Below, in pieces: positions 424 to 3,400 of a stretch of 64,000 bases of DNA; positions within the stretch are counted from its first letter, which is position 1, and the number at the start of each line of letters is the position of its first letter. The notes below the pieces were generated by a model that did no database searches, had not been told where the DNA came from, and saw only the letters and a program-made list of their open reading frames with translations. A program made the translations under genes and the position numbers. The stretch spans positions 62,001-126,000 of the forward strand of contig JAUIGU010000001.1 in NCBI GenBank assembly GCA_030432595.1. The letters run 5' to 3'. The stretch is from Phycisphaerae bacterium. Lineage in GTDB: Bacteria; Planctomycetota; Phycisphaerae; Phycisphaerales; Phycisphaeraceae.

Positions 424-3400
424 CTACGACACTCCCGCCGGCGACTCGGCGAAGTATTCCTGCAGGCTGCGCACACCCCACGCGCCGCTGCGCAGCGCCC
501 GGATCGCGTCCACCGCGACGGCCGCGGCGGTCATGGTCGTGATCATCGGCACGCCGTGCCGGACCGCGGTGGCGCGGAGCTTGCCCTCGTCGGTGCCGGC
601 GCCCTTGCGCGTGGGCGTGTTGATGATGAGGTCGAGCTCGCCGTTCTTGATCAGGTCGATCGCGTTGGGTCGGCCGCCCTCCTGGATCTTGCGGATCAGG
701 CGTGACGCCACGCCGTGTCCAGTCAGGAAGTTGTGCGTGCCGGTCGTGGTGACGATCTCGAAGCCCTGCTCGCTGAGCGACTTCGCCACGCCCAGCGCGT
801 CCGGCTTGTCCGCCTCACGCACCGAGAGGAACACCGAGCCTTCCGTCGGCAGCTTCGACCCCGCGGACATCTGTGACTTGGCGAACGCCACCGCAAAATC
901 CGGGTCGGCCCCCATGCACTCGCCGGTGCTGCGCATCTCGGGGCCGAGGATCACGTCCACCCCCGGGAACTTCGAGAACGGGAACACGGATTCCTTGATC
1001 GAGGTATGGGTCGGGATCACTTCTTCGGTTACGCCCAACTCGGCGAGCTGCTTGCCGGCCATGACCTTCGCCGCCAGGTTTGCCCACGCCACGCCCGTCG
1101 CCTTGCCGACGAACGGCACCGTCCGCGACGCCCGCGGGTTGACCTCGATCACGAAGAGTTCGTCCTCGCCGCTGTCCGGATTCTTGCGGACCGCCCACTG
1201 CACGTTCATCAAACCCCGCACCTTCAACGCCTCGGCGAGTTTGCGCGACTGCTGCTTGATCGTGTCCACCATCTCCGGCGACAGCGAGTAAGGCGGCAGC
1301 GAGCACGCGCTGTCGCCGCTGTGGATGCCGGCCTCCTCGATGTGCTCCATGACGCCGCAGACGAGCGCGATTGCCGATGGAGGATTGCCGAAGTCCGATT
1401 GTTCCCCGGACACCTCGGAACTCGGCAATCCAAAATCGGCAATGACATCCACATCGCACTCGGTCGCGTGGAACAGAAACTTGTCCACGAGGATCGGCTG
1501 GCCCGCCAGGTCGGACGCACCGATGGCTTCGACCATGTACCGGCGGAGCTGTTCGTCGTCGAACACCGTCTCCATGGCCCGCCCGCCAAGCACGAACGAC
1601 GGACGCACCAGCACCGGGTACCCGATGCGGTTGGCGATCTCGACGGCTTCGTCGGCGCTGTACGCGATGCCGTTGTCGGGCTGCTTGACGTCCAACTCCC
1701 GACAAAGCTCAGCAAACCGGTCGCGATCCTCGGCCAGGCGGATCGCTTCGACGCCCGTACCGATGATGGGAACGCCCGCTTGTTCGAGGCCTTCCGCCAG
1801 GTTGAGCGGGGTTTGGCCGCCGAACTGCACGATGACGCCGTGAAGCAGGCCGTCTTTATCGCCGAGCGGTTTGCCGTTGAGCCGTTCGCAGATGTTCAGC
1901 GCGTCCTCGAGCGTCAACGGTTCGAAGAACAGCAGGTCGGACGTGTCGTAGTCGGTCGAAACCGTCTCGGGGTTCGAGTTGACCATCACCGCCTCGAAGC
2001 CGAGCTCCTTGGCGGCGAACGCGGCCTGCACGCAGCAGTAGTCGAACTCGATGCCCTGCCCGATGCGGTTGGGGCCGCCGCCGAGGATGACGATCTTCTT
2101 GCGGTCGGTGACGCGGACCTCGTCGTCGTAGAACGAGGGGGTCCCGCCGAAGTAGGCTTCGTCCGCGTAACACACCGGCGACGCCACCTCGACCGAGTCT
2201 CCATCTAAAGCCCGGAGATGGCCATCTCCGGGCTTTACGGTCGTGTACGGCGCTTCGTACGTCGAGTAGTAATACGGCGTTTGCGCCTCGAACTCCGCGG
2301 CGCACGTATCGACGAGCTTGTACACCGGCTCAATGCCCAGCGACTTGCGGTGGTCGCGCACCTTGAGGATGGTCGCGCTGTCGATCTTGCCGAGATAGAG
2401 GTTCGCGAGCTGCGCGTCGCTGTAGCCGAGTTGCTTCGCCTCGAACAGCACGTCGCGCGGCAGGTCTTCAAGTTTGTCGTGGCCCGTCAACACATCCTCG
2501 AAGTCCACGAGCTGCTTGATCTGGTCGAGGAACCACGGGTCGATCTTCGTGCTCTCGTGTACCTGCGCGATGGTCCACCCGGCCTTGAACGCGTAGCGGA
2601 TGTAGTACATCCGGCCCTGCGAGGGGACTTCGAGCTTGCGGCGGAGCTTGCCCTCGTCGATGGGCCACGCTCCGGAAGTGTCGCCACCGCGCTGTCCGTT
2701 GAGCCACTTGTCCTGCGCGTCGAGCCCGAGCCCGAAGCGCTTGACCTCCATCGAGCGGATGCCTTTTTGCAGGCTTTCCTTGAAGGTGCGCCCGATGGAC
2801 ATGCCTTCGCCGACGGACTTCATCTGCGTCGTCAGGGTTTCGTCGGCCTCGGGGAACTTCTCGAAGGTCCAGCGCGGGATCTTCGTGACCACGTAGTCGA
2901 TGCTCGGCTCGAAACAGGCGACGGTCTGCCCGGTGATGTCGTTGGGCAGCTCGGCGAGCGTGTACCCGACCGCGAGCTTGGCGGCGAGCTTGGCGATGGG
3001 GAAGCCGGTCGCCTTGGACGCGAGCGCGGACGAGCGCGAGACGCGGGGGTTCATCTCGATGACGACCATCTCGCCGTCGGCGGGGTTGACGCCGAACTGC
3101 ACGTTGGACCCGCCGGTCTCGACGCCGACCGCACGGAGCACGGCCAGCGACGCGTCGCGCATCCGCTGGTATTCCTTGTCGGTCAGCGTCTGGGCCGGGG
3201 CAACGGTGATGGAGTCGCCGGTGTGCACGCCCATCGCGTCGAAGTTCTCGATGGCGCAGACGATGACCGCGTTGTCGTCGCGGTCGCGCATGACCTCCAT
3301 CTCGTACTCTTTCCAACCCAGAAGCGAGCGGTCGATGAGCACCTGCGAGGTCATGGAGGCGTCGAGGCCGCGGCGGGCAATGTCTTCGAACTCGTCGCGG

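Follow-up and report, generated by a model that had tools for sequence, protein, structure and literature searches.

The carB gene, which encodes the large subunit of carbamoyl-phosphate synthase, occupies positions 424–3975 on the minus strand of the 64,000-nucleotide stretch of Phycisphaerae DNA analysed here (the window). Its open frame gives a stop-free product of 1183 aa, residues 4–1174 of which match NCBIfam PRK05294 with 1585.6 bits. The frame begins with a TTG at 3975, and the ATG at 3966, which corresponds to residue 4 and is aligned with residue 1 of the Escherichia coli protein, is likely to be the true start. One full CarB, and no second, was found in the genome of origin (G000; 4,386,089 bases in 73 contigs). 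Two unusual features in carB had been singled out by a first-pass annotation of the sequence, and both are recovered exactly at their positions. One is a perfect palindrome of 32 bp (2206–2237, minus strand; 16 + 16 nt, 100% identity, no spacer), which encodes V580–L590. The other is a nested inverted repeat of 74 bases (1370–1443, minus strand), made of two 29-nt arms that match at 83% around a 16-nt spacer, and it encodes I845 to within codon 869. The reading frame is preserved across the gene, as had been stated. Folded as single strands, the two elements reach z scores of −7.07 and −6.20, respectively, and none of 200 shuffles equals either value.

Each element lies in a length-variable loop. 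Loop 1 (Y568–E619; 2119–2274, minus strand) is an interdomain segment between the conserved YYYS and DDE motifs, and loop 2 (D843–M876; 1348–1449, minus strand) is found between the predicted strands 838–847 and 870–881. The proposal that both segments fall in stretches that E. coli CarB lacks is borne out by alignment to PDB 1bxr: the palindrome-coded segment falls between two aligned blocks, where CarB residues 576–621 face only six residues of the E. coli protein (550–555), and the segment coded by the 74-base repeat has few E. coli counterparts, gaps filling most of the alignment there. Structural modelling, which had been suggested for both segments, also puts them in stretches of low predicted order. 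In the one AlphaFold2 model, built from 25 CarBs (mean pLDDT 75, pTM 0.81), pLDDT is below 50 across residues 576–615 of loop 1, the palindrome-coded residues 580–590 included, and across residues 852–864 of loop 2, both low stretches being flanked by predicted strands. The two loops are predicted to be disordered in this model, and the shallow alignment in these regions may be another cause of the low pLDDT.

The palindrome belongs to a dispersed family, defined by a 30-nt core, AAAGCCC-N6-GGCC-N6-GGGCTTT, in which the two N6 segments are mutually complementary. With at most 3 mismatches to a degenerate 26-nt core (AGCCCGGRGAYGGCCRTCYCCGGGCT), 43 copies are found in the genome, against 0 for the reversed-pattern control; the exact carB form, again with at most 3 mismatches, is found at 27 places. 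Perfect palindromy extends over 30 nt in 24 of the 43 copies and over 32 nt in 16. Four left-arm forms with their matching arms (GGAGAC, GGAGAT, GGGGAC and GGGGAT) make up 38 of the 43 copies, and two stem pairs thus vary jointly on both sides; one is A-T in 27 copies, G-C in 15 and G-T in 1, the other T-A in 18 and C-G in 25. The 30-nt core is preceded by T in 32 copies and followed by A in 32, both being the case in 23, and a 28-nt core with TA on both sides can be recognized in 22 of the 43. Immediately outside the 32-nt form, six copies have identical 3-nt flanks (GGG, CCC, ACC, AAA, GGG and GGT) for a shuffled mean of 1.6, a possible trace of the insertion mechanism; identical flanks longer than 3 nt are not frequent among the 43 copies. 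The first-pass annotation had also described intergenic hairpins with the same AAAGCCC ends elsewhere in the window, which did not hold up: the carB copy is the sole family match in these 64 kb. Across named genome contigs, in a scan that may omit the genome studied here, the exact 32-base pattern occurs at 3 places, all of them in Phycisphaeraceae bacterium PL23b_bin.10.

Most copies of the family (35/43) lie outside genes by codon score. According to rough gene calls, 17 of these 35 stand between tandem genes, 8 between convergent and 5 between divergent ones, 4 are at locus edges and 1 is inside a called gene. The copy at C56:40518 is outside genes by codon score and inside a called gene by the other method. 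A bidirectional terminator or another regulatory hairpin, present in some genes by accident, would account for the GC-rich stem, for the eight copies between convergent genes and for the many copies that, by the same rough calls, have a gene end no more than 60 nt away. No T-run follows the stem, however, since the base after TTT in the 86 flanks is A in 64 cases, G in 16, T in 4 and C in 2; eight copies sit inside genes whose transcription has to continue past them; and such a high sequence identity is needless for a terminator. The lack of a T-run and the copies inside genes led us to reject termination as the main explanation, and the regulatory reading as a whole looks improbable. A secondary regulatory role of the intergenic copies is possible.

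The other eight copies are in frame on both sides of a gene by codon score. Their hosts are carB, thrS, ileS, valS, mnmA, polX, an adenine deaminase gene and a sulfite-reductase-like gene, most of which are housekeeping genes. This in-gene status is predicted from the codon score, which was trained on the 64-kb window and may miss genes in other genomes, together with family matches; seven of the eight proteins pass the NCBIfam cut-off and the sulfite-reductase-like one fails. In each case, the palindrome adds about ten amino acids to a variable loop. Seven copies are read in one frame and have the peptide KPGD[GS]-x-x-RAL in common, the ileS copy is read in a second frame and yields another peptide, and the third frame opens with TAA when the palindrome is preceded by T. 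The different frame of the ileS copy implies that it is the DNA, not the peptide, that the copies share. No second copy of the seven non-carB gene segments was found in the genome, the sole extra match being a weak one of the ileS gene to part of valS. These data bear directly on the idea that the loops simply vary in length and that the carB palindromes are due to chance or are a by-product of selection at the protein level. Both CarB loops do differ in length among relatives, and their inserts are mostly non-palindromic. But the same 30-nt sequence at 43 places, 35 of them non-genic by codon score, its occurrence in seven unrelated genes besides carB and the change of frame in ileS make this explanation very improbable.

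The family extends beyond one genome. A scan of 400 genomes from the order for AAAGCCC-N6-GGCC-N6-GGGCTTT, allowing at most one mismatch, gave matches in 32, G000 included, against 2 for the control, with one match each. There are 39 matches in G069, 34 in G000, 32 in G121, 27 in G023, 23 in G072 and 3 in the same-genus genome G001, and among the matches listed the N6 forms vary between genomes. An assembly artefact or an amplification chimera, which the draft state of G000 with its 73 contigs might suggest, is hardly conceivable when the carB copy is internal to a contig of 458,719 bases and the family recurs in other genomes, for instance in the one-contig assembly G072. Within a set of 63 copies from ten other genomes (among them 10 from G069, 6 from G121, 0 from G023 and 11 from G072), four are in genes by codon score: those of G072 CarB, G030 IleS, a G100 protein that matches no NCBIfam family and, in G090, a glycine dehydrogenase-like protein. 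In codon position and frame, the G072 CarB palindrome agrees with that of G000 CarB, and the G030 IleS palindrome agrees with that of G000 IleS in loop and frame. Alignments add three more in-gene copies, outside the 63 that were codon-scored, namely in G072 MnmA, in G030 CarB (in the third frame) and in G069 CarB.

The 74-base repeat is of another kind. It is built from ATTGCCGA / TCGGCAAT-like units and has 31 matches in the genome at E ≤ 10, itself included, all the others being partial, with 36 nt at 92% for the best of them. The whole element was not found elsewhere in G000. A search of the genome at high identity, which had been proposed for both elements, was thus positive for the palindrome and its 43 copies and negative for the complete 74-base element. 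In some of the partial matches, two opposite-strand arms lie close together in a hairpin-like arrangement. The first five coded residues, IADFG, are also present in G001, which means that part of one arm is native or has silently replaced native sequence. In our view, the repeat belongs to a family of hairpins that is only loosely conserved and has no relation to the palindrome. Codon scoring of 20 loci of this type flagged 4 as lying in genes, carB, L025, L040 and L043, and the flags on L040 and L043 were judged by eye to be due to chance. At L025 (1501–1536, G000:C56:17179–17214), one arm of a ATTGCCGA-type hairpin lies within another open frame, 2070 nt long, where it reads DQSAFGNPQSAI in the same frame as in carB. 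Resembling the CarB loop 2 hairpin in style, inverted repeats made up of CAGTAGT / CAGGAGC-like units also occur in the window at 23162–23264 and 25204–25317.

The distribution of such elements along carB was examined in relatives. The CarB comparison left out G017, G029 and G025, which were in the wrong frame, and G002 and G021 gave no full CarB match in the CarB search. In 57 carB genes (193 kb), 13 inverted repeats score at least 13, and 10 of them fall in the two loops, which represent 5.0% of the sequence (binomial probability 2.5e-11 if the thirteen are independent). The five repeats of loop 1 comprise the family palindromes of G000, G030, G072 and G069 and another hairpin in G055; the five of loop 2, in G000, G007, G032, G100 and G082, are all of the longer type, the four other CarBs having hairpins that differ from that of G000; and the three outside both loops belong to G007, G032 and G090. 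In the G032 gene (L311), AAGTGGCC-like units form two inverted repeats, near residues 809 and 902 of the part that was read. Each loop is unreadable in 3 of the 57 genes, and at least the loop 2 reading of G082 is incomplete. Among 54 readable interdomain loops, the family palindrome is present in four and absent from the same-genus G001, so that the segment does occur in some relatives only, a point on which the first-pass annotation had wished to see its proposal checked. The carriers include three genera other than that of G000.

A quick tree computed from 56 CarBs with the loops removed joins G000 to G001 (support 96), G072 to G039 (98) and G030 to G047 (89, short of the threshold of 95), and leaves G069 without a partner. 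The CarBs of the three partners G001, G039 and G047 are devoid of the palindrome. Loop length is 44 residues in G072 and 42 in G039, so that a plain insertion is not apparent in that pair. The simplest reading of these sequences is that the CarB palindromes of different genera would be separate gains. An ancient gain followed by losses is kept as an option because the codon position is common to G000 and G072 and because the loop of G039 almost equals that of G072 in length.

The other host genes were compared in a subset of loci from 12 genomes, with 10 relatives for thrS, or 14 with a further comparison, 8 for ileS, 7 for valS, 11 for mnmA, 5 for polX, 5 for adenine deaminase and 4 for the sulfite-reductase-like gene. 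In G001, whose genome contains 1 or 3 family matches at other places depending on the pattern, the palindrome is absent at all eight gene positions. The MnmA of G072 carries TAAAGCCCGGCCGTGGCCACGGCCGGGCGTTA, about one codon off the G000 position and in the same frame, and the ValS of G100 holds a segment, EPGDGGARAL, whose sequence resembles a decayed copy of the palindrome. The loops are too variable for base-by-base alignment, and an exact empty site was not observed. The valS and mnmA products of G000 exceed those of G001 by just 3 and 4 residues, respectively, and a replacement of loop sequence is therefore possible there. Other repeats were observed in these genes: in G016 thrS (L157), a GGT-ACT-TCC-GGG tandem repeat occupies the loop that the palindrome uses in G000, and G030 mnmA (L338) and G027 valS (L200) contain another in-frame inverted repeat, which encodes PLPHGRGS in both and lies at sites other than the palindrome sites.

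These comparisons are also relevant to a scenario in which each gene received a single insertion long ago, which was inherited and then lost or degraded in sister lineages, the stems being homogenised within each genome by gene conversion. The common codon position and frame of the G000 and G072 CarB palindromes, each with a stem form that recurs in its own genome, would follow from it, as would the offset of about one codon between the two MnmA palindromes and the decayed look of the G100 ValS segment. It needs several losses, however, to explain the palindrome-free CarBs of G001, G039 and G047, and in thrS, polX, adenine deaminase and the sulfite-reductase-like gene G000 is the only carrier among 14, 5, 5 and 4 relatives, respectively. 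We consider this scenario rather unlikely.

The best reading is that these are small mobile hairpins, kept where they are in frame in loops. To the statement that the palindrome is a short non-autonomous repeat dispersed and spreading in the order, and that the 74-base hairpin is a separate element with the same fate, we assign a probability of about 0.85. Copies would arise by insertion, and most of them would settle outside genes. A minority would land in genes, where the insert would add about ten mostly polar residues; such copies would survive because the frame is kept, two of the three frames are stop-free and the receiving loop is variable and probably disordered. Selection on frame and position would act as a filter, and the coded protein segments would be near-neutral passengers. 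The first-pass annotation had already suggested mobile palindromes in an essential gene; the existence of a family and its dispersal are supported by the 43 copies, and the movement itself we infer. Movement by a linked RAYT was considered and rejected: the genome has three Y1_Tnp matches, two of them above the cut-off, but none is near any of the 43 copies, the closest copy on the same contig being over 30 kb distant, and G004 and G016 have Y1_Tnp matches without any palindrome copy (G008 has neither).

A further proposal, which we put forward tentatively and hold to be possible though doubtful, is that housekeeping proteins of the order have loops in which hairpins land repeatedly: in different genera, the two CarB loops, together with loops of IleS, MnmA and perhaps ValS, would time and again receive hairpins of separate families, and the palindromic stems would remain near-perfect and lineage-specific although translated. 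If true, it would mean that the DNA structure itself is copied or repaired as a unit, by hairpin-templated movement or correction, and that the elements are a continuing source of new segments in essential enzymes.

The best-known translated palindromic repeats are those of Rickettsia, an intracellular group with small genomes. The Rickettsia palindromic elements (RPEs), as presented in PMC2229807 and PMC10969869, are dispersed palindromes of 105–146 bp or about 150 bp, in frame in many unrelated conserved genes, and one RPE-bearing enzyme was shown to be active. The planctomycete palindrome is similar in being in frame in eight genes, with a peptide common to seven; in contrast, it measures 30–32 bp, is symmetrical throughout, and belongs to genomes of about 4–5 Mb in another phylum. 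GTAG/CGTC-tagged REPs, according to the account of Di Nocera et al. (2013, PMC3733652), are hairpins of 20–40 bp, mostly intergenic; some are in frame inside genes, tRNA synthetases included, and different REPs occupy about the same recB site in two Xanthomonas. Size (30–32 bp), copy number (43) and the share of non-genic copies (35/43) bring our palindrome close to them, but it is untagged, symmetrical throughout and without a Y1 transposase gene nearby. In its 86 twelve-base flanks, GTAG occurs once and CGTC four times, for about three of each expected by chance as an estimate. MITEs, described as 70–300 bp long with terminal repeats (PMC3733652), and small TA-ended repeats (PMC10969869, PMC3733652, PMC2229807) are likewise small, non-autonomous, dispersed and inverted, and about half of our copies have TA ends; unlike MITEs, the palindrome has no internal sequence. 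The heptamer direct repeats of Beggiatoaceae (TAACTGA), reported as short units in direct or inverted arrangement between genes (PMC4679880, PMC4853749), are similar in style to the units of the CarB loop 2 hairpin. This likeness is only a lead, the CarB hairpins having another unit, belonging to another phylum and being translated.

In-frame intragenic palindromes are as such known, through the RPEs and the intragenic tagged REPs. The first-pass annotation knew of no planctomycete case. This can be kept only with reserve. No account of an in-gene palindrome in planctomycetes was found in the titles and abstract openings of the open-access literature, but PMC3733652 reports tagged REPs in Planctomycetes, its in-frame intragenic REPs being described in other groups and six planctomycete genus names being absent from its main text. 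What is new here is a short, untagged and symmetrical palindrome in frame in eight planctomycete genes, and the presence of other hairpin families with it in the CarB loops.

A multi-gene case in planctomycetes, with genomes of about 4–5 Mb, bears on where essential proteins tolerate insertions, on how such small palindromes can move when no transposase is linked to them and on how their symmetry is kept up under translation. Since relatives have different hairpins at the same sites, the process is testable.
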